A stretch of DNA of 36,433 nucleotides from Streptomyces benahoarensis (GTDB lineage Bacteria > Actinomycetota > Actinomycetes > Streptomycetales > Streptomycetaceae). Under the pieces are notes generated by a model. The model saw nothing but the letters and a program-made list of their open reading frames with translations, was not told where the DNA came from and did not search any database. Location of the stretch: positions 1 through 36,433 of the forward strand of contig NZ_VKJP01000025.1 of NCBI RefSeq assembly GCF_007280575.1, written 5' to 3'. Within the stretch, counting starts at the first letter, position 1; each line of letters opens with the position of its first letter. Position numbers and translations under genes: made by a program. This document shows, one piece after another, positions 13,688 through 26,086 of this stretch.

Positions 13688-15158
13688 TCAGGCTGCGAGC
13701 TTGGCCAGGGCCGCGTCGATGCGGGACAGGGTCCGCTCCTTGCCCAGGATTTCCAGGGACTCGAAGAGGGGCAGGCCGACGGTGCGGCCGGTGACCGCGA
13801 CGCGGACGGGGGCCTGGGCCTTGCCGAGCTTGAGGCCGTGCTCCTCACCAGCGGCGAGGACAGCGTTCTTCAGCGACTCGGGGCTGCTCCAGTCGGCGTC
13901 CAGCAGCTTGGCGCGGGCGGTGGTGAGCAGCGCCACCGGCTCGCCCTTCATCGCCTTCGTCCAGGACACCTCGTCCTCGACCGGCTCCTTGCGGAACAGG
14001 AAGTCGACGTTGGCGGTGATGTCCGAGAGGACCGTCAGCCGGGTCTGGGCGTGCGGGGCGATGGCCTCCCACGCCGCTTGGTCGAAGTCCTCGGGCCCCC
14101 AGTTGGCGTGCGGGGCCGTCAGCCAGGGCTCACAGGCGGCGATGAAGGACGGGAGGTCCAGCTGCCGGATGTGGTCGGCGTTGATCGCCTCGGCCTTCTT
14201 GAGGTCGAAGCGGGCCGGGTTGGCGTTGACGTCCGCGATGTCGAACTTCTCGACCAGTTCGGCGACGGAGAAGAGGTCACGGTCGGCGGAGAACGACCAG
14301 CCGAGCAGCGCGAGGTAGTTGAGCAGGCCCTCGGGGAGGAAGCCGCGCTCGCGGTAGAGGTTGAGGGACGCCTGCGGGTCGCGCTTGGAGAGCTTCTTGT
14401 TGCCCTCGCCCATGACGTACGGCAGGTGGCCGAAGGCCGGGATCCCCTTGGCGTAGCCCAGCTCGATGAGCGCCTTGTAGAGGGCGACCTGGCGGGGGGT
14501 GGAGGAGAGCAGGTCCTCGCCGCGCAGGACGTGGGTGATGTCCATCAGCGCGTCGTCGACGGGGTTGACGAGCGTGTAGAGGGGCGCGCCGTTGGCCCGG
14601 ACGATGCCGTAGTCCGGAACGTTGTCCGGAGTGAAGGTCAGCTCGCCGCGGACCAGGTCGGTGAAGGTGATCGGCTCGTCGGGCATCCGGAAGCGGATGA
14701 TCGAGGAGCGGCCCTCGGCCTCGTAGGCGGCTTTCTGCTCGTCGCTCAGGGAGCGGCAGGTGCCGTCGTAGCCGGAGGGCTTGCCGGCCTTGCGGGCGGC
14801 CTCGCGGCGGGCGTCCAGCTCCTCGGTGGTGCAGTAGCAGGGGTAGGCGTAGCCGCCGGCGAGCAGCTTGTCGGCGACCTCCTTGTAGAGGTCCATGCGC
14901 TGCGACTGGCGGTAGGGCGCGTGCGGGCCGCCGACCTCGGGGCCTTCGTCCCAGTCGAAGCCCAGCCACCGCATGGAGTCCAGCAGCTGGTTGTAGGACT
15001 CCTCGGAGTCGCGGGCCGCGTCGGTGTCCTCGATGCGGAAGACCAGGGTGCCCTGGTGGTGGCGCGCGAACGCCCAGTTGAACAGGGCGGTGCGGACCAG
15101 TCCCACATGGGGGTTGCCGGTCGGTGAGGGACAGAAACGGACGCGGACGGGGGTCGCG

Positions 15159-15166
<8 letters not shown>
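13688..15166 (-). CDS. gltX: Glutamyl-tRNA synthetase
   Basis: This class I synthetase charges tRNA-Glu. In bacteria lacking GlnRS it also mischarges tRNA-Gln for GatCAB, which is expected in Streptomyces. The 492-residue protein has the HIGH-type motif PSPTGNPHVG at residues 13-22, RIEDTDAARDSEES, and the KMSKS-type motif KLSKR at 258-262. The C-terminal helical anticodon-binding region follows. The start is GTG at 15164-15166 with AAGGTGA inside the upstream FAH gene; the two genes overlap by 8 bp. Its cognate and non-cognate substrates, tRNA-Glu and tRNA-Gln, are encoded just downstream. Confidence 0.97.
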
Positions 15167-15920
<754 letters not shown>

Positions 15921-16001
15921 GGGTGCCGCTGCCCCTCATTGATCACTGGCCGGAGTGGACACTCCAGGCTAACGCGGGGGCGCGGCTCGCCCGCTGCGGA
16001 A

Positions 16002-16190
16002 TTACACCGCGGTGTCCTGGCCGGGGGCGTCCATCAGGACGGTACGGCGCGGGTTGGCGGTCTGCGTGGGCAGCTCGGCGACGTGCTCCGGGGCCGGGGT
16101 GGCGGCGGTCAGCTCGTCGGCGTCCTTGAGGTGCGCCAGCGTGGTGCGCCGCGGGTTGGCTATGTTGCGGAACATCATCGTGGTCTTCAC
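16002..16190 (-). CDS. Small peptide with duplicated ANPRRT motif
   Basis: The 62-residue product starts at GTG 16188-16190, with GAGG 9 bases before, and runs (M)KTTMMFRNIANPRRTTLAHL ... to the C-terminus GQDTAV. The hexapeptide ANPRRT occurs twice, followed by TLAHL and VLMDA, about 35 residues apart. There are no Cys residues, no signal peptide and no membrane segment. The middle is Ala/Pro/Thr-rich. It is not a family I can name. A peptide precursor with repeated cores or a protein with two binding motifs are both possible. It lies between the FAH gene and the conservon, with no processing enzyme adjacent. Its strong internal duplication argues that it is real. Confidence 0.6.
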   Translation of the reverse strand: MKTTMMFRNIANPRRTTLAHLKDADELTAATPAPEHVAELPTQTANPRRTVLMDAPGQDTAV

Positions 16191-16866
16191 TGCTTCACGC
16201 CTCGCGTAGATCGGGATGCATCGGAAGGGACGGCCGGCCCGGTGGGGCGGTGCGGACCGGGCCCGCCGCATCCGTGGCGCCGCGGGAGCGCGGAATCACG
16301 ACAACGGGCGAGGTCGCGCGGGGTGTCCTTGTCGCGCCGGCTGCCTTTGTAAAGCATCAGACTAAGCGGGCCATTCCCTGCGATGCGGGGGGAAAGTCAC
16401 CGACCCCCCTGTGAGTTTCCTCACTGAGTACGTGACAAATGCCGCAATTCCCACGATCAGCATCAAGGGATGAACAGGACATCGATCACCAGAAGGCTCC
16501 ATTTCGCCTCCGATCACCGCACCTGGGACAACAGAGCGACCGAAGCGGTTAGAGGTCAAAAGTCCGTTATCGACCATGGATCCCTCTACGTGTCGTGACA
16601 CGATCCGCACCGTGTGTCACCCATGTCGCACCGCACGGTTCCGCTCTTGTTGGAGATCCGGCACTGTGCTGGAATTCCACGGACCGCCGCATGTATCAAC
16701 CGGCGCGCAGGGCGCGATGTGGCGCAGCGCGGTGGAGTTGCTCTCTCGGCCAGAGGGGGAAGCCCGCCGGTCATTCACGGCCGCACGGGGGCTTGCGGTC
16801 CCCCACGACTCGACACCGTCCCGCCGCTCACGCGGGGGGACGCCTGGTCCAGAGGTTGCGACGCTA
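16191..16866. other. Long leader and promoter region before cvnA1
   Basis: No convincing gene is seen in these 676 bases. The cvnA1 frame stays open from 16576, but its product before residue V at 16867 looks noncoding. The region must hold the minus-strand promoter of the ANPRRT peptide and the plus-strand conservon promoter. Visible elements are GTGAG-TTTC-CTCAC at 16411-16424 and the GTGTC/GACAC palindrome at 16589-16602. Confidence 0.5.
16589..16602. promoter_or_regulatory. GTGTC/GACAC palindrome upstream of cvnA1
   Basis: CGTGTCGTGACACG is an inverted repeat broken only at the two central bases. A further GTGTGTCAC follows at 16612-16620. Related elements precede cvnA2. It is a candidate operator shared by both conservons; the binding protein is unknown. 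Confidence 0.5.
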
Positions 16867-19800
16867 GTGCAGGGACGTTTCAAGAGGGATGGCACGGAGC
16901 CTTCCCAGGCCCGTAAGGGCCGGGAAGCTGCGGCGGAGCCGGAGCCGCGCGGCGGGACCGACCGCGCCTCCTCTCCCCAGCGTGCCCAGGGGGGCGGTCC
17001 GGCGAACGCCCCGGCGCCGTCCGACCGGAGCGACCGGAGCGGCGGCGACGCCGACCGGGGAACGGCCAAGGAGCAGTCGGGCCCGGGCGGTCCCGGCTCC
17101 CGGGTCGCGTTGCGCAACTGGCGCATCAGCACCCGTCTGATCTCCCTGCTCGCGCTGCCCGTGGTCGCCGCGACCTCGCTGGGCGCCATCCGTATCCAGG
17201 ACTCGATGGAGAACATCGAGCAGCTGGACAAGATGAAGATGCTCACCGACATGACGCGGCAGGCCACCGAGCTGGCCGACGCGCTCCAGGTCGAGCGGGA
17301 CAAGTCGGCGGGCCCGCTGGCGGGTTCGGGCAACGCCAAGGACGACGCCAACGTCGTCGCACCGCGGGAGGCCACCGACCGCGCCCGCATCGCGTTCAAC
17401 CAGGGCACCGGCGACATCCAGGGCGTCGACGCCACGATGACCGGTGTGCGGGCGACCGTCCTGGAGATCGGCCGCCAGCTCAACACCCTCAACGAGATCC
17501 GCGGCAGCGCGTACAAGGACGACGGCAACGCCGCGCGCACCATCAGCAACTACAACCAGCTGATCGACTCGCTGCTCTCCCTCTCCCAGGACATGGCGCA
17601 GGCCACCAGCAATCCGGAGATGATCCGGTCCACCCGTGCACTGGCGGCGTTCTCCTCGGCCAAGGAGTACGCGTCGATGCAGCGCGCCCTGGTCAGCGCC
17701 GGTCTCGCCCACAAGGGCGGCCCCCAGCTCTCCGCCAACGACCGGTTGGCCGGACGTACCGCCGAGGACGACGAGAAGGCGGCCCGCGACCGCTTCTCGC
17801 AGATCTACGCGGGCAATGCCGGCTCCCTCACCCGCGGTCTGGACGGCAACAACGACGAGATCAAGGCGGCGGTCGCCTTCGCGCACCGCGCCTTCGCCAG
17901 CAACAGCGGCATCCGCAGCCAGGAGTACAAGTACCTGGACTGGTACGACTCCGACACCGTCAAGGTCGAAGAGATGTCTCGGATCGAGACCTCGCTGCTG
18001 ACCGAGATGGAGCAGAAGTCCCGCGAGCTGCGCAACGCGGCGACGCAGGAAGCGATCATCAACGGTGCGCTGATCTTCCTCGTCCTCGGTGTCTCGCTGG
18101 TCGGCGCGTTCGTCGTGGCGCGGTCCATGGTCCGCTCGCTGCGCCGTCTCCAGGACACCGCCCAGAAGGTGGCCCAGGAGCGGCTGCCGGAGCTGGTCAA
18201 GCACCTGTCCGACACCGACCCGCAGGACATCGACACCTCCGTCGAGTCGGTCGGTGTGCACAGCCGGGACGAGATCGGCCGGGTGGCCGCGGCCTTCGAC
18301 GACGTGCACCGCGAGGCGGTCCGGCTGGCGTCCGAGCAGGCGCTGCTGCGGGGCAACGTCAACGCGATGTTCACCAACCTCTCGCGCCGCTCCCAGGGCC
18401 TGATTCAGCGTCAGCTCTCGCTCATCTCCGAGCTGGAGTCCCGCGAGGCCGACCCGGACCAGCTGTCCTCCCTCTTCAAGCTCGACCACCTCGCGACGCG
18501 TATGCGCCGTAACGGTGAGAACCTCCTCGTTCTCGCGGGTGAGGAGCCCGGCCGTCGCTGGACGCGTCCGGTGCCGCTGGTCGACGTGCTCCGCGCCGCC
18601 GCCTCCGAGGTGGAGCAGTACGAGCGCATCGAGCTGACCGCCGTACCGCAGACCGAGGTCGCCGGGCGCGTCGTCAACGACCTCGTGCACCTGCTCGCGG
18701 AGCTGCTGGAGAACGCCACGTCGTTCTCCTCGCCGCAGACCAAGGTGAAGGTGACCGGTCACGCGCTGCCCGACGGGCGGGTGCTGGTCGAGATCCACGA
18801 CACCGGTATCGGCCTCTCCCCCGAGGACCTGTCGTCCATCAACGAGCGGCTGGCCAGCCCGCCGACCGTGGACGTCTCGGTCTCCCGCAGGATGGGTCTG
18901 TTCGTGGTCGGCCGCCTGTCGCTGCGTCACGGCATCCGCATCCAGCTGCGGCCGTCCGACTCCGGTGGCACGACCGCGCTGGTCATGCTGCCCGTCGATG
19001 TGGCGCAGGGCGGCAAGAAGCCGGCGCCGTCCACCGCGAAGGGCCAGTCGCCCGAGGGCGGTACGGGTTCCGGCTCCGGCTCCGGCCCCGGTACGGGTTC
19101 CGGCTCCGGCGGGACGAGCCGTCTCGCGGGGCTGCAGCCGCGCGGCCAGGTCGGTTCGGGCCCCGGCGGCACCGGGCGGCCCGCGCTGCCGGGCCGTGGC
19201 GGTCCGGGTGGTCCCGGGCGTACGGCCTCCGGTGGTCTCGGCGGTCCGGGCGGCTTCGGCGGTCCGGTGCCCTCCGGCGGCCCCGTGCCGCAGGCGCCCG
19301 CGGCACCGGACGCGTCCGCGCGCCCGGCGAACGCCCCGGCCGACGGCGGCCGTCCCGCGCTCCCCACCCGTCACGTGCAGCGCGGCGAGGCGCCCGCCGA
19401 AACCTCCGGCGCGACGCCGACGGTGGCGCCGCCCACCGGTGCGCCGGGCCGTGACGAGCGGCCGCAACTGCCGCCCCGCGGCCCGGCCGCGGAGCTGACC
19501 GGCTCCCCCGCCGCGGAGGCCGCTCCGGCCGTCGACTCCCCGCAGCCGGGCACCAGTTGGGGCGTACGCCGCGACCGCGGCGCGACCGACGACTGGCCGC
19601 TGGCACCCCGCGAGCCCCAGGACACACCGCGCGGCCACGAGGAGCCGGAGACCACCGGCACCTTCGCGCGTCCGACGGCGCCGGAGACCACGGGCGCCTT
19701 CGCGCTCCCGACCCCGCCCGAGACGACCGGCACCTTCGCGCGCCCCACGCCGCCCGAGACGACCGGCACCTTCGAACGTCCGGCGCCGCCGGAGACCACG

Positions 19801-20682
19801 GGCACCTTCGCGCGCCCGGCGCCGCCCGAGGCGACCGGTGGCCCCGGTGACACCACGGCCTTCGCCCGGCCCGACTTCAACGGGCCGCCGCCCGGCGCTC
19901 CCCGGGGCGACGCGCAGGCGCCCGATGACACCGGCCGGTTCCCGCTGCCCGGCGGCCCCGCCCCCGCGGCTCCGGAGCACTTCGGGCAGACCGCGTCCGG
20001 TCTCCCGCTGCGGGACGCCGGGCGGCCCGACGCGTCGCGCCGGGCGGCGCAGGAGAGCGGCGACGCCCCGTCGGAGGCGGCCAGCCTCTTCGGCGTCGCC
20101 CCCGAGGCGCCGCACGCCACCGGCCAGGTCCCGGCGCAGCCGTCGCCGGACGTCGCGCCGGAGCCCGCCCCGTCGGCGGACTGGCTCGGCGACACGTCGG
20201 CCGGTGCCGGTGACGGGCGGACGCCGATCTTCGACACCATCGAGTCGAACTGGTTCCACACGCCGGAGGCGGCCGCCGCCGGTGTGGAGCCGCCGCCCTC
20301 CACCCACACCGAGGCGCCGCAGCCGCAGCAGGCTCCGCGGCCCGCGGACGGTCCGGACGACACGCCCGCCGGGGGCTTCGACACCACCGGCTGGCGCAGT
20401 TCACCGAACGACGAGACCTGGCGGCAGGCGGAACAGATCCGTCAGCCGGCCGCGGGCGGGGTGACCACGTCGGGACTGCCCCGCCGGGTGCCGCGCGCCA
20501 ATCTCGTCGCCGGTACGGCACAGCAGCAGCCCACCCAGAGCGGTCCGCAGGTCTCGCGCGCGCCCAGCGACGTACGCGGCCGGCTGACCAGTCTTCGCCG
20601 GGGTATCCAGCAGGGCCGGCAGGCCGGTGGCGACACCGGGCAGCACGGCGTGGTGGACCCCACTCACCAGCAGGAGCGTTAG
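16867..20682 (+). CDS. cvnA1: Conservon sensor kinase CvnA (first copy)
   Basis: The 1271-residue protein has a disordered N-terminus (1-78), TM1 at about 90-108 (LISLLALPVVAATSLGA), a nitrate/nitrite-sensor-like helical extracytoplasmic region, TM2 at about 398-418, and a HAMP region. A DHLATRMRRN segment follows with His541, then a HATPase domain with N box LLENAT (about 613-618) and G1 box DTGIGL (645-650). The last 560 residues are Pro/Gly-rich with a 12-residue repeat, ending in a conserved GLPRRVPRANLV block. GTG at 16867 is chosen because VQGRFKRDG matches my memory of CvnA starts. It heads cvnA-B-C-D, a membrane complex likened to eukaryotic G-protein signalling. Kinase activity of CvnA proteins is uncertain. 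Confidence 0.92.
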   Translation: MQGRFKRDGTEPSQARKGREAAAEPEPRGGTDRASSPQRAQGGGPANAPAPSDRSDRSGGDADRGTAKEQSGPGGPGSRVALRNWRISTRLISLLALPVVAATSLGAIRIQDSMENIEQLDKMKMLTDMTRQATELADALQVERDKSAGPLAGSGNAKDDANVVAPREATDRARIAFNQGTGDIQGVDATMTGVRATVLEIGRQLNTLNEIRGSAYKDDGNAARTISNYNQLIDSLLSLSQDMAQATSNPEMIRSTRALAAFSSAKEYASMQRALVSAGLAHKGGPQLSANDRLAGRTAEDDEKAARDRFSQIYAGNAGSLTRGLDGNNDEIKAAVAFAHRAFASNSGIRSQEYKYLDWYDSDTVKVEEMSRIETSLLTEMEQKSRELRNAATQEAIINGALIFLVLGVSLVGAFVVARSMVRSLRRLQDTAQKVAQERLPELVKHLSDTDPQDIDTSVESVGVHSRDEIGRVAAAFDDVHREAVRLASEQALLRGNVNAMFTNLSRRSQGLIQRQLSLISELESREADPDQLSSLFKLDHLATRMRRNGENLLVLAGEEPGRRWTRPVPLVDVLRAAASEVEQYERIELTAVPQTEVAGRVVNDLVHLLAELLENATSFSSPQTKVKVTGHALPDGRVLVEIHDTGIGLSPEDLSSINERLASPPTVDVSVSRRMGLFVVGRLSLRHGIRIQLRPSDSGGTTALVMLPVDVAQGGKKPAPSTAKGQSPEGGTGSGSGSGPGTGSGSGGTSRLAGLQPRGQVGSGPGGTGRPALPGRGGPGGPGRTASGGLGGPGGFGGPVPSGGPVPQAPAAPDASARPANAPADGGRPALPTRHVQRGEAPAETSGATPTVAPPTGAPGRDERPQLPPRGPAAELTGSPAAEAAPAVDSPQPGTSWGVRRDRGATDDWPLAPREPQDTPRGHEEPETTGTFARPTAPETTGAFALPTPPETTGTFARPTPPETTGTFERPAPPETTGTFARPAPPEATGGPGDTTAFARPDFNGPPPGAPRGDAQAPDDTGRFPLPGGPAPAAPEHFGQTASGLPLRDAGRPDASRRAAQESGDAPSEAASLFGVAPEAPHATGQVPAQPSPDVAPEPAPSADWLGDTSAGAGDGRTPIFDTIESNWFHTPEAAAAGVEPPPSTHTEAPQPQQAPRPADGPDDTPAGGFDTTGWRSSPNDETWRQAEQIRQPAAGGVTTSGLPRRVPRANLVAGTAQQQPTQSGPQVSRAPSDVRGRLTSLRRGIQQGRQAGGDTGQHGVVDPTHQQER
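19645..19824 (+). repeat. Five tandem 36-bp units in the cvnA1 tail
   Basis: The codons specify five 12-residue units of the form PETTGTFARPTP (residues about 927-986 of CvnA1), with small substitutions, followed by a degenerate sixth unit beginning PEATGG. Unit number may vary between strains, and short reads may misassemble it. Confidence 0.85.
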
Positions 20683-21105
20683 TTGAGTCCGATGAGCCAG
20701 GCGGCGCAGAACCTGAACTGGTTGATCACCAACTTCGTGGACAACACCCCCGGTGTCTCCCACACGGTCGTGGTCTCCGCGGACGGTCTCCTCCTCGCCA
20801 TGTCCGAAGGCTTCCCACGGGACCGAGCCGACCAACTGGCAGCAGTGGCCTCCGGCCTCACCTCGCTGACCTCCGGCGCCTCCCGCATCTTCGAAGGCGG
20901 AAGCGTCAACCAAACCGTGGTGGAAATGGAACGCGGCTTCCTCTTCATCATGTCCGTCTCCGACGGATCCTCCCTGGCCGTCCTCGCACACCCCGAGTGC
21001 GACATCGGCCTCGTCGGCTACGAAATGGCCCTCCTGGTCGACCGCGCAGGCAACGTCCTCACCCCCGACCTACGCGCCGAACTCCAGGGCAGCCTGTTGC
21101 ACTGA
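20683..21105 (+). CDS. cvnB1: Roadblock/LC7 protein CvnB (first copy)
   Basis: The 140-residue protein is a Roadblock/LC7 fold, with LNWLITNFVDNTPGVSHTVV, SADGLLLAMSEGF and DIGLVGYEMALLVDRAG. Such proteins dimerise and bind small GTPases; MglB is the GTPase-activating relative. CvnB links the CvnA tail to CvnD in the conservon complex. The TTG start at 20683 follows AGGAG and directly abuts the cvnA1 stop; ATG at 20692 is an alternative. Bases 20689-21095 are identical to the second copy. Its codon use is richer in A-ending codons (GGA, CCA, GAA, CAA) than the neighbouring genes. Confidence 0.93.
   Translation: MSPMSQAAQNLNWLITNFVDNTPGVSHTVVVSADGLLLAMSEGFPRDRADQLAAVASGLTSLTSGASRIFEGGSVNQTVVEMERGFLFIMSVSDGSSLAVLAHPECDIGLVGYEMALLVDRAGNVLTPDLRAELQGSLLH
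20689..21095 (+). repeat. 407-bp block identical to 25670-26076
   Basis: Line-by-line comparison shows no difference over 407 bases between the two cvnB genes. Both flanks diverge immediately. Confidence 0.93.
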
Positions 21106-21199
21106 AGCGCCGCAGCACATGTCCCGTACACCGCCGAACAGCCACCGGCCCAACCCGACGGCAGTCCCGCACAAGACAGTTGTCACGCCCGGAGGATCC

Positions 21200-21607
21200 A
21201 TGACCCCGCCACCCACGTCGGACCCCTACGATGCCTACAGTCAGGCGTCGTACGGCGGCGAAGGCGACCAGCCCCTGGTGCGTCCCTACGCCATGACGGG
21301 CGGCCGCACCCGGCCGCGCTACCAGCTCGCCATCGAGGCGCTGGTCAGCACCACGGCAGACCCGTCCCAGGTGCCCGGTCTGCTGCCGGAGCACCAGCGG
21401 ATCTGCCACCTGTGCCGTGAGGTCAAGTCGGTCGCCGAGGTCTCCGCGCTGCTGCACATACCGCTGGGGGTGGCGCGCATTCTCGTCGCCGACCTGGCGG
21501 AGGCCGGGATGGTGGCGATCCATCAGCCGGGTGGCAGCGGTGAGGCCGGCGGTACGCCGGACGTGACGCTGCTGGAGAGGGTGCTCAGTGGACTTCGCAA
21601 GCTCTGA
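21200..21607 (+). CDS. cvnC1: DUF742 protein CvnC (first copy)
   Basis: The 135-residue protein has a short disordered N-terminus and a DUF742 domain: VRPYAMTGGRTRPRYQLAIE, HQRICHLCREVKSVAEVSAL, LGVARILVADLAEAGMVAIH. The domain is predicted to be winged-helix-like, with a CHLC motif, and is known only as part of conservons and related clusters. ATG at 21200 is preceded by GGAGGATCC; the frame is open upstream to 21119, but that part looks noncoding. The stop codon overlaps the start of cvnD1 by 20 bp, suggesting coupled translation. Confidence 0.93.
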   Translation: MTPPPTSDPYDAYSQASYGGEGDQPLVRPYAMTGGRTRPRYQLAIEALVSTTADPSQVPGLLPEHQRICHLCREVKSVAEVSALLHIPLGVARILVADLAEAGMVAIHQPGGSGEAGGTPDVTLLERVLSGLRKL

Positions 21608-22184
21608 CGCCGCGTTCGGGGACGGCGCCCCCGCCCGTTCGACCACCTCGGCGAAGATCGTGGTGGCCGGCGGTTTCGGTGTGGGCAAGACGACCTTCGT
21701 CGGCGCCGTCTCGGAGATCAACCCGCTGCGTACGGAGGCCGTGATGACCTCCGCGTCGGCGGGCATCGACGATCTCAGCCACGTCCGGGACAAGACGACG
21801 ACGACCGTGGCGATGGACTTCGGCCGCATCACCCTGGACCAGGACCTGATCCTGTACCTCTTCGGTACACCCGGACAGGACCGCTTCTGGTTCATGTGGG
21901 ACGACCTGGTGCGCGGTGCCATCGGCGCCGTCGTCCTCGTCGACACCCGCCGCCTCGCCGACTGCTTCCCCGCCGTCGACTACTTCGAGAACAGCGGCCT
22001 CCCCTTCGTCATCGCCCTCAACGGCTTCGAGGGGCATCAGCCGCACACGCCCGAAGAGGTGCGCGAGGCCCTGCAGATCGGGCCCGGTACGCCGATCATC
22101 ACGACCGATGCCCGTCAGCGCGGTGAGGCGAAGAGCGCGCTGATCACGCTGGTCGAGCACGCGCTCATGGCCCGCCTGCGCTGA
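21588..22184 (+). CDS. cvnD1: Small Ras/MglA-like GTPase CvnD (first copy)
   Basis: The 198-residue GTPase has the P-loop GGFGVGKT at residues 28-35 and a switch II TPGQDR at 94-99. ALNGFEG at about 143-149 stands where Ras proteins have NKxD, so guanine specificity is set differently. CvnD is the signalling GTPase of the conservon and is thought to cycle on the membrane complex with CvnA, B and C. The GTG start at 21588 lies inside cvnC1. Bases 21789-22030 differ at one position from the second copy, while the first 200 bases are clearly diverged. Confidence 0.94.
   Translation: MDFASSDAAFGDGAPARSTTSAKIVVAGGFGVGKTTFVGAVSEINPLRTEAVMTSASAGIDDLSHVRDKTTTTVAMDFGRITLDQDLILYLFGTPGQDRFWFMWDDLVRGAIGAVVLVDTRRLADCFPAVDYFENSGLPFVIALNGFEGHQPHTPEEVREALQIGPGTPIITTDARQRGEAKSALITLVEHALMARLR
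21789..22030 (+). repeat. 242-bp block matching 26935-27176 with one difference
   Basis: The only difference is C at 21920 against G at 27066. The block covers the central part of cvnD, including switch II. Confidence 0.9.
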
Positions 22185-25500: not shown

Positions 25501-25662
25501 GGCCCCCAGGTCTCCCGTGCCCCGGAGGACATCCGCGGCAGGCTGAGCAATTTGCGTCGCGGCGTCCAGCAGGGCCGCAGCGCGGGGGTGGACCGCTCGG
25601 AGTTCCCCCACAATGACCAACAGGGCTTCGGCCCCGGCAGCACCTACGATCAGGAGCGTTAG
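22555..25662 (+). CDS. cvnA2: Conservon sensor kinase CvnA (second copy)
   Basis: The 1035-residue protein has TM1 near 57-76 (RLNAILLIPVLLALVFGGL), an extracytoplasmic helical sensor region, and TM2 near 380-400 (AIVLAALIAAFLVAGLMA). HAMP is followed by DHLATRMRRN with His near 522, and a HATPase domain with LLENAT near 594 and DKGIGL. A Pro/Gly/Ala-rich tail ends in GLPRRVPKANLV. The kinase core is close to that of the first copy, whereas the sensor and tail have diverged, so the inputs probably differ. GTG at 22555, preceded by GAGAGG, is preferred because upstream residues look noncoding; GTG at 22528 is possible. The tail lacks the 12-residue repeat found in CvnA1. Confidence 0.9.
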   Translation: MRRSKASPEPREARRGNFTPPSRSTGPAPGTPEPTPAPPFSGGKPYSPRNWRVATRLNAILLIPVLLALVFGGLRVNSSLDTWQDAQDAESTAKLVRAALTYGNALIDERDRTADPLLNGKKNDPAVGDARAATDRAAADFRTAAESMPDKPGLKRRLASFTTAENGLGALRDSAYTSALPGVRTEEGYVAIQHPLMEFANELGLGTGNITSYGRTVYALSLAKAAASLERSIGVHLLVDPATGTTYKRQLTAFASYRYLENIAIGEYTSGGTPEDVERLKKDTAALKATAKTKNAQARRQAETAGRPFRAPPSIDAMATAIGSGASPQDLADRGITPEVWFTAATGSFDMYRSIEKDLADKAVAEAAQISADAERTTFTDTAIVLAALIAAFLVAGLMARRMSRNMRTLRTAAFGIAEQKLPMLVDQLSRAEPGRVDTRVRPIPIGTTDEIGEVARAFDQVHREAVRLASEQAMLRGNVNAIFTNLSRRNQGLIERQLTLITDLENNEADPDQLENLFRMDHLATRMRRNGENLLILAGEEPGRRWDQPVPLVDVLRAATSEVESYERIELAGVTESEIHGQAVTDLVHLLSELLENATTFSSPQTKVRVAATRMSDGRIMVEIHDKGIGLAAEDFADINHKLANPPSVDVAVSQRMGLFVVGRLADRHGIRVQLRPSGEQAGTTSLVMLPDAITHGGGGNVRFEEDFTVPRTAPDQPRPPRPDAPATAPGAAPGHPGFAADAAGAGHDGMSRSLLREERRAALEETQGAQQADGGPLLGGVAPDLAGYGAQSGPQAYAEADQPRYGDGTFGTEGFRPAADPHATDQHPYAAPEAPATGGGFEPAAYDGHFGAEAESDRNTPAAHVDASERVPFDRPGSSPSDSHSLTDAGLPRRGGHTEQAQPAAQEWAQPGEAAVPPQRWEASDQVLDGSEWRSSNDERWERAERLREPKAGGVTPSGLPRRVPKANLVEGSAEQSPQGGPQVSRAPEDIRGRLSNLRRGVQQGRSAGVDRSEFPHNDQQGFGPGSTYDQER

Positions 25663-25663
25663 T

Positions 25664-26086
25664 GTGAGCCCGATGAGCCAGGCGGCGCAGAACCTGAACT
25701 GGTTGATCACCAACTTCGTGGACAACACCCCCGGTGTCTCCCACACGGTCGTGGTCTCCGCGGACGGTCTCCTCCTCGCCATGTCCGAAGGCTTCCCACG
25801 GGACCGAGCCGACCAACTGGCAGCAGTGGCCTCCGGCCTCACCTCGCTGACCTCCGGCGCCTCCCGCATCTTCGAAGGCGGAAGCGTCAACCAAACCGTG
25901 GTGGAAATGGAACGCGGCTTCCTCTTCATCATGTCCGTCTCCGACGGATCCTCCCTGGCCGTCCTCGCACACCCCGAGTGCGACATCGGCCTCGTCGGCT
26001 ACGAAATGGCCCTCCTGGTCGACCGCGCAGGCAACGTCCTCACCCCCGACCTACGCGCCGAACTCCAGGGCAGCCTCCTGAACTAG
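25664..26086 (+). CDS. cvnB2: Roadblock/LC7 protein CvnB (second copy)
   Basis: The 140-residue Roadblock/LC7 protein differs from the first copy only at the last residue (Asn for His). Nucleotides 25670-26076 are identical to 20689-21095. GTG at 25664 follows AGGAG and starts 1 bp after the cvnA2 stop. Because the two CvnB proteins are practically the same, each could enter either complex, making cross-talk between the conservons likely unless the CvnA tails confer specificity. Confidence 0.93.
   Translation: MSPMSQAAQNLNWLITNFVDNTPGVSHTVVVSADGLLLAMSEGFPRDRADQLAAVASGLTSLTSGASRIFEGGSVNQTVVEMERGFLFIMSVSDGSSLAVLAHPECDIGLVGYEMALLVDRAGNVLTPDLRAELQGSLLN
25670..26076 (+). repeat. 407-bp block identical to 20689-21095
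   Basis: This is the second member of the identical cvnB pair. Its flanks, cvnA2 and cvnC2, do not share the identity. Confidence 0.93.

Follow-up and report, generated by a model that had tools for sequence, protein, structure and literature searches.

The conservon Cvn1 is reported to promote antibiotic production and aerial growth (excerpts of PMC9739842 and PMC6428758), and the excerpted text of PMC9739842 describes SCO5544, the S. coelicolor CvnA1, as acting positively, via SigU, on the production of actinorhodin and prodiginine and on aerial growth. Some conservons include a cytochrome P450, CvnE (excerpts of PMC9739842 and PMC13343842). CvnF8, a protein in its own right, binds CvnA8 and stimulates it (PMC13343842, in the part available), which sets a precedent for accessory control of a CvnA. 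According to the same part of that paper, the CvnE/CvnF accessories accompany CvnA proteins that have no sensory domain.

The window (the whole stretch of DNA that was analysed, 36,433 nucleotides) contains a small gene that can be set beside these accessories. Like CvnF8, its product is a separate protein that is encoded with a conservon and possibly modulates a CvnA kinase. Unlike CvnF, which carries a GAF domain in the available text of PMC13343842, it consists of 62 residues with no predicted fold, and its gene is divergent from the operon. Unlike the CvnA partners of CvnE and CvnF described there, the CvnA1 beside the small protein bears a NIT sensory domain. The gene is a conservon-associated extra gene, as is that of CvnE, but the protein has neither a GAF nor a P450 domain, nor any other domain of Pfam or NCBIfam (no family at E ≤ 1). 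Bivalent short-linear-motif adaptors, in which a fast-evolving linker joins two copies of a short motif, offer another comparison: the small protein has both the twin motif and the fast-evolving linker, but unlike in those adaptors, its motif matched no known class by any tool. Judging by the gene order in a table of PMC4595836, a paper available in part, the gene would be the counterpart of S. coelicolor SCO5545, also an uncharacterised gene paired with cvnA1 (SCO5544), the likeness being one of position. A near-universal small protein locked to Cvn1 is a candidate missing component of conservon signalling and a test case for signal transfer by conservons. The features of the locus are listed here by their positions in the window.

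16002–16190, minus strand: small protein gene with twin ANPRRT, GTG start, TAA stop, 62 residues
16200–16203, minus strand: GAGG, a likely ribosome-binding site judged by sequence and position, 9 nt before the GTG
16161–16163, minus strand: Ile10 codon ATA, rare yet conserved
16143–16160, minus strand: motif 1, ANPRRT, residues 11–16, usually followed by TL
16062–16142, minus strand: variable linker, residues 17–43, judged variable by pN/pS (residues 23–39) and motif spacing
16041–16061, minus strand: motif 2, TANPRRT, residues 44–50, usually followed by xLM
16191–16866, no strand: intergenic region shared by the divergent small gene and cvnA1; conserved blocks show in an alignment of 76 of the 174 distinct upstream regions
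16410–16426, no strand: conserved palindrome TGTGAGTTTCCTCACTG, from the alignment of upstream regions
16867–20682, plus strand: cvnA1 (NIT, HAMP, HATPase_c), with a putative GTG start at 16867
20683–22184, plus strand: putative cvnB1, cvnC1 and cvnD1, names assigned from gene order and resemblance to the second conservon

The open reading frame runs on the minus strand from the GTG at 16190 to the TAA at 16002 and encodes the 62-residue product VKTTMMFRNIANPRRTTLAHLKDADELTAATPAPEHVAELPTQTANPRRTVLMDAPGQDTAV. Re-reading the frame confirmed the translation given in the original prediction, and the duplicated ANPRRT that had been claimed is found at residues 11–16 and 45–50 (16143–16160 and 16041–16058), the two copies lying 34 residues apart. 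Any exact six-residue repeat occurred in 68 of 200,000 shuffles of the protein, a frequency of about 0.0003 before conservation is considered. The six-residue pattern has four matches in the genome from which the window comes, two of which are those in the small gene; the other two were judged by eye to be spurious reading frames. The gene encodes a real, selected protein that is conserved as a protein throughout the family. Its overall pI is 6.7, not that of a basic protein. Inspection by eye revealed no signal peptide, and the protein is presumably cytoplasmic. It matched nothing in PHROGs or among solved structures at E ≤ 10, and nothing in plasmids or phages at E ≤ 0.01. Real and conserved as it is, no discussion of it was found in the literature searched: “SCO5545” at the start of a word, “ANPRRT”, and “NPRRT” together with Streptomyces are absent from the papers (supplements lay outside the search), and among the other locus tags sought, some of them guessed, only “sco5544-5545” occurs, in one paper. 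Reports of binding, expression or a phenotype were likewise not found there.

The original prediction had called the peptide an orphan, which is wrong: nearly every genome sampled from its genus and family encodes the protein. Used alone as the query, the protein found a match in 388 of 392 genomes of the genus, its own included (E ≤ 0.01), and in 146 of 150 genomes drawn from the family, of which 38 belong to the same genus (E ≤ 0.05). A profile search rescued two of the four family misses (G392 and G426), which brings the family count to 148 of 150 and leaves G405 and G507; the four misses in the genus (G001, G010, G276 and G373) remained without a match under the profile. Some family matches are weak with the single protein (E 0.002–0.04). 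In three of these genomes (G395, G408 and G410) the sequences were read and both motifs are present, two others (G418 and G454) score well with the profile, and a further one (G420) is counted by the single-protein search only. Outside the family, one of 15 genomes of the same order gave a partial match (E 0.015) and 40 of 268 other genomes of the class gave matches, all at E 0.0025 or weaker, which we read as chance level. As far as sampled, the small protein appears confined to one family. The 80 named loci taken from the genome collection, the best 80 of at least 546 confirmed, are all from Streptomyces.

Conservation is concentrated in the two motifs. A diverse alignment of 23 rows has no invariant columns other than A11, N12, P13, R14, R15 and T16 in the first copy and T44, A45, N46, P47, R49 and T50 in the second; R8, L18, R48, L52 and P56 are conserved at 90% or more. 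The two motifs read approximately TANPRRTxL. Both motifs are present at 77 of 77 loci (L001–L077) whose extraction required one loose motif only, and R48 alone varies inside them (71 R, 4 K, 1 L and 1 N). L001–L057 are the best-scoring matches of whole-protein searches, and L058–L077 were picked from such matches in other genera. A larger set of 190 copies was chosen for two ANP.[RK]T motifs, and motif patterns also served to find the 80 named loci; part of the invariance of the motifs in these sets is therefore built in. Of the 188 distinct proteins that passed a two-motif selection, one has a third copy and the other 187 no more than the two; the motifs are spaced 29–49 residues apart, most commonly 33 (94 proteins). 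G330 keeps both motifs with just 29 residues from one to the other. The two-motif filter found no such reading frame in 32 of 260 loci, most of which are other loci or regions without the gene, and the family loci that it dropped are L152, L165 and L168. In L152 (G479), ANPQRT and TANVRRT replace the two motifs, and cvnA and the gene of the FAA-hydrolase family (FAA) still adjoin. L165 (G454, a 76% complete assembly) contains one TANPRRI, the other part not having been read. L168 has overlapping CvnA loci, L253 and L260, in G375, an assembly 55% complete in which the small gene and cvnA both seem frameshifted. Extra copies also occur: in L065 (G400) the reading frame starts with TASPRRY directly before ANPRRT, a degenerate copy with Ser for Asn, and in L061 (G396) the 5′ leader contains a third in-frame TANPRRT, preceded by no ATG, GTG or TTG.

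The codons of the motifs, those of the second motif included, change synonymously. Compared with the window sequence, pN/pS (median pN over median pS) is 0.07 for the motifs and 1.20 for the linker; over 1500 random pairs (ratio of means) it is 0.16 and 0.93, the linker values in both cases being computed over residues 23–39. The linker evolves near neutrally and the motifs are constrained. The check proposed at the outset was whether homologues keep the motif and synteny with cvnA and whether conservation exceeds the synonymous expectation; the homologues keep both, and the motifs (pN/pS of about 0.07–0.16) do exceed it. AlphaFold2, run on 40 sequences, gave a pTM of 0.14, a mean pLDDT of 59.7 and one 7-residue helix. 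Such low confidence suggests disorder but is no proof of it; the protein is probably disordered, with no fold of its own. With the exception of G479, the family presents two conserved motifs on a variable linker, as bivalent short-linear-motif proteins do.

The position of the gene upstream of, and divergent from, a conservon was borne out as well. The divergent cvnA (NIT domain, E 3.9e-37) has its putative start 676 nt away, and its reading frame points to the GTG at 16867, as does a conserved GTGCAGGG.CG.TT that recurs in 174 distinct upstream regions. Downstream of the small gene, on the same strand, lie FAA and then gltX. A divergent upstream cvnA-like gene is present at 77 of 77 loci (L001–L077) and in 190 of 190 distinct two-motif copies, and also at L152 and L165, which the motif filter had dropped. 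FAA is in place in 181 of the 190 copies (absent in 6, without room in 3) and gltX in 176 (absent in 11, without room in 3). Since cvnA is kept in all copies while FAA and gltX can be displaced, the small gene stays with cvn1. Outside the family, a CvnA1 query of 403 residues matched two of four genomes, at 25–28% identity.

Five of the six loci without an adjacent FAA (L050, L146, L147, L149 and L151) share another neighbour on the opposite strand, which by eye looks like an acyl-CoA carboxylase beta subunit. In G482 and G088, FAA is on the far side of cvnA and on the opposite strand, at a distance of 11–12 kb from the small gene; the genes in between were read as cvnA1-B-C-D-cvnA2 in G088, and in G482 the reading covers cvnA1 alone. 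FAA is on another contig in the remaining three genomes with the carboxylase-like neighbour. The small gene and the conservons would thus have been inverted as one block relative to FAA and gltX, and a single inversion is the simplest account because the five loci share the same new neighbour. The block appears inverted relative to FAA and gltX at L272 and L273 as well as at these five loci. At the sixth locus (L137 in G222), FAA is 1.8 kb downstream, with extra sequence between.

The conservon, for its part, does not need the small gene, since G010 (L261) and G405 (L262) have no small gene yet keep gltX, FAA and the cvnA1-B-C-D operon. A CvnA1 match was not found in G001, G373 and G507 and was partial in G276; the genes missing from these four genomes may reflect assembly gaps.

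The best explanation of these data, and one that we hold tentatively, is that the small protein is a bivalent, disordered, cytoplasmic docking protein or adaptor that acts in the Cvn1 G-protein system and tunes its output during development. Two copies of one docking motif, TANPRRTxL, would be carried on a flexible linker with no fold of its own, and both would engage the same kind of surface. A homodimer, for instance the CvnA1 kinase or the CvnB1 roadblock protein, could plausibly offer this surface on each of its protomers, and docking there, perhaps as a bridge across the symmetric dimer, would tune the signal during development. CvnA1 and CvnB1 are natural candidates because histidine kinases and roadblock proteins are dimeric. 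Of the functions proposed originally, two docking sites fit best with two fixed motifs, a near-neutral linker and the lack of a predicted fold; the docking itself, the partner and the direction of the effect are what we infer. A role as a regulator of CvnA, also proposed, is still conceivable and its link to cvn1 has become much stronger, but G010 and G405 keep the whole cvn1 operon without the small gene. This persistence of cvn1 argues against docking in Cvn1, as does G479, which departs in both motifs. The NIT domain of CvnA1 is a further point against it, the CvnE/CvnF accessories described in PMC13343842 being partners of CvnA proteins with no sensory domain. Moreover, the constant pairing could stem from a shared control region rather than from shared function. 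Some resemblance between the motif and the conserved CvnA tail SGLPRRVPRANLV was considered and rejected as too weak, P-R-R alone being in common; the tail is also present in G010 and G405, both without the small gene.

The shared intergenic region contains two strongly conserved blocks in the 76 aligned regions, 16646–16690 and about 16805–16869, the latter ending where the intergenic regions were cut. Both exceed the small gene's own leader in conservation and may represent a promoter and a 5′ leader that carries control sites. Sigma-70-like promoters and terminator-like sites were sought in 15880–16900 and none were found. The palindrome TGTGAGTTTCCTCACTG at 16410–16426 presumably resembles the consensus of a BldD box; a similar palindrome was seen by eye in G010 and G405, both of which are without the small gene. 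In the available excerpts of PMC6428758 and PMC5859096, BldC binds and activates cvn1 in S. venezuelae, cvn1 is a BldD target too, and WhiAB bind its promoter. WhiB ChIP traces at cvnA1 are listed in the accessible part of PMC4850268, and WblC enriches the cvnA1 promoter, classed as repressed, in that of PMC7157823. Excerpts of three further papers include sco5544-5545 in a table of ScbR/ScbR2 targets (PMC4595836), report a fall of the SCO5544 transcript upon ppGpp induction (PMC2374992), and table SCO5546 as a widely conserved orphan (PMC3224560), an entry that fits the FAA gene. The ChIP sites assigned to cvnA1 sit in the region shared with the small gene and may act on both.

A second peculiarity of the gene is its codon for Ile10. 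Among 190 distinct sequences examined, 167 have Ile at this position and 133 of these encode it by ATA; among distinct sequences from the named loci, the proportion is 62 of 68. In FAA, gltX and cvnA of the named loci, ATA makes up 45 of 4981 Ile codons (about 1%) and is found in none of 53 conserved Ile columns. The departure of the Ile10 column from codon usage, 6.11 bits, is larger than that of all 1075 background columns, the highest of which reaches 5.75 bits, so such columns are not unique to the small gene. The 20 loci of other genera have ATA in 8 cases, ATC in 2 and another residue in 10. An antisense −10 box formed by the ATA codon was rejected because codon 9 varies while ATA stays. 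AUA is read by a lysidine-modified tRNA (PMC4932002, in the part available). An elaboration of the Cvn1 docking model strikes us as improbable: a dedicated bivalent ligand would clamp both halves of a CvnA1 or CvnB1 dimer, and the ATA codon would gate its synthesis, AUA being the counterpart of the UUA/bldA developmental switch.

Docking could also take place outside the conservon. A twin-motif docking protein whose partner lies elsewhere (e.g. a developmental regulator or a polar-growth protein), with its adjacency to cvnA1 due to a crowded divergent promoter, is nearly as good an explanation as docking in Cvn1, although we regard it as doubtful. The conserved blocks of the intergenic region, the persistence of cvn1 without the small gene and, in the excerpts cited above, the binding of BldC, BldD, WhiA/WhiB and WblC at the cvnA1 promoter and the sco5544-5545 entry of the ScbR/ScbR2 table all favour it, but by itself it leaves without explanation the occurrence of the family, as far as sampled, only alongside a close CvnA1 (four genomes outside the family were searched for CvnA1). 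The motifs might also contact nucleic acid, the two N-P-R-R copies forming a bivalent DNA or RNA clamp. The S/T-P-K/R-K/R motif sits in the DNA minor groove and N-P-R-R would make a similar Asx-Pro turn; each motif is locally basic, and the divergent L065, with its TASPRRY before ANPRRT, has S-P-R-R in place of N-P-R-R. This reading is nevertheless unlikely, given the pI of the whole protein and the conservation of Ala and Thr and of a nearly invariant Leu, which a groove on a protein suits better.

Two more explanations treat the peptide as something other than a docking protein. It could be inert in itself and part of a regulatory leader, in which translation through ATA and NPRR controls the downstream genes: the ATA before motif 1 is kept against a strong codon bias, and the gene is usually upstream of FAA and gltX on the same strand. 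We consider this very improbable. A gene controlled by attenuation would stay adjacent, yet the reading frame is kept while FAA and gltX are displaced, FAA being out of place in 6 of the 187 copies with room (five with another neighbour and one, G222, with extra sequence between). The second motif, 34 codons downstream, is fixed at the protein level with synonymous change. Nor is the RNA structure or terminator of an attenuator apparent: the RNA of 16100–16240 folds no better than shuffles (z +1.17), a terminator-like site is absent in 15880–16900, and Rfam gave no family at gathering score in 15000–17500, with one sub-threshold match. The suggestion of a two-core peptide, either a RiPP precursor or a secreted signal, which appeared in the original prediction as two cores of a processed peptide, draws on the small size and the exact repeats but is unsupported and scarcely credible. 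Motif 1 starts at residue 11, so that ten residues alone would be available for a leader peptide before the core. A near-neutral linker takes the place of a conserved cleavage site, the constant neighbours are cvnA, FAA and gltX, and secretion would call for a signal peptide, which was not seen by eye.

The window also holds a second conservon in tandem with cvn1. The cvnB genes of the two (20671–21095 and 25651–26076) are 99.5% identical over 426 nt, and identity falls to 86% over the next 910 nt, a contrast suggestive of recent gene conversion between the two cvnB genes.
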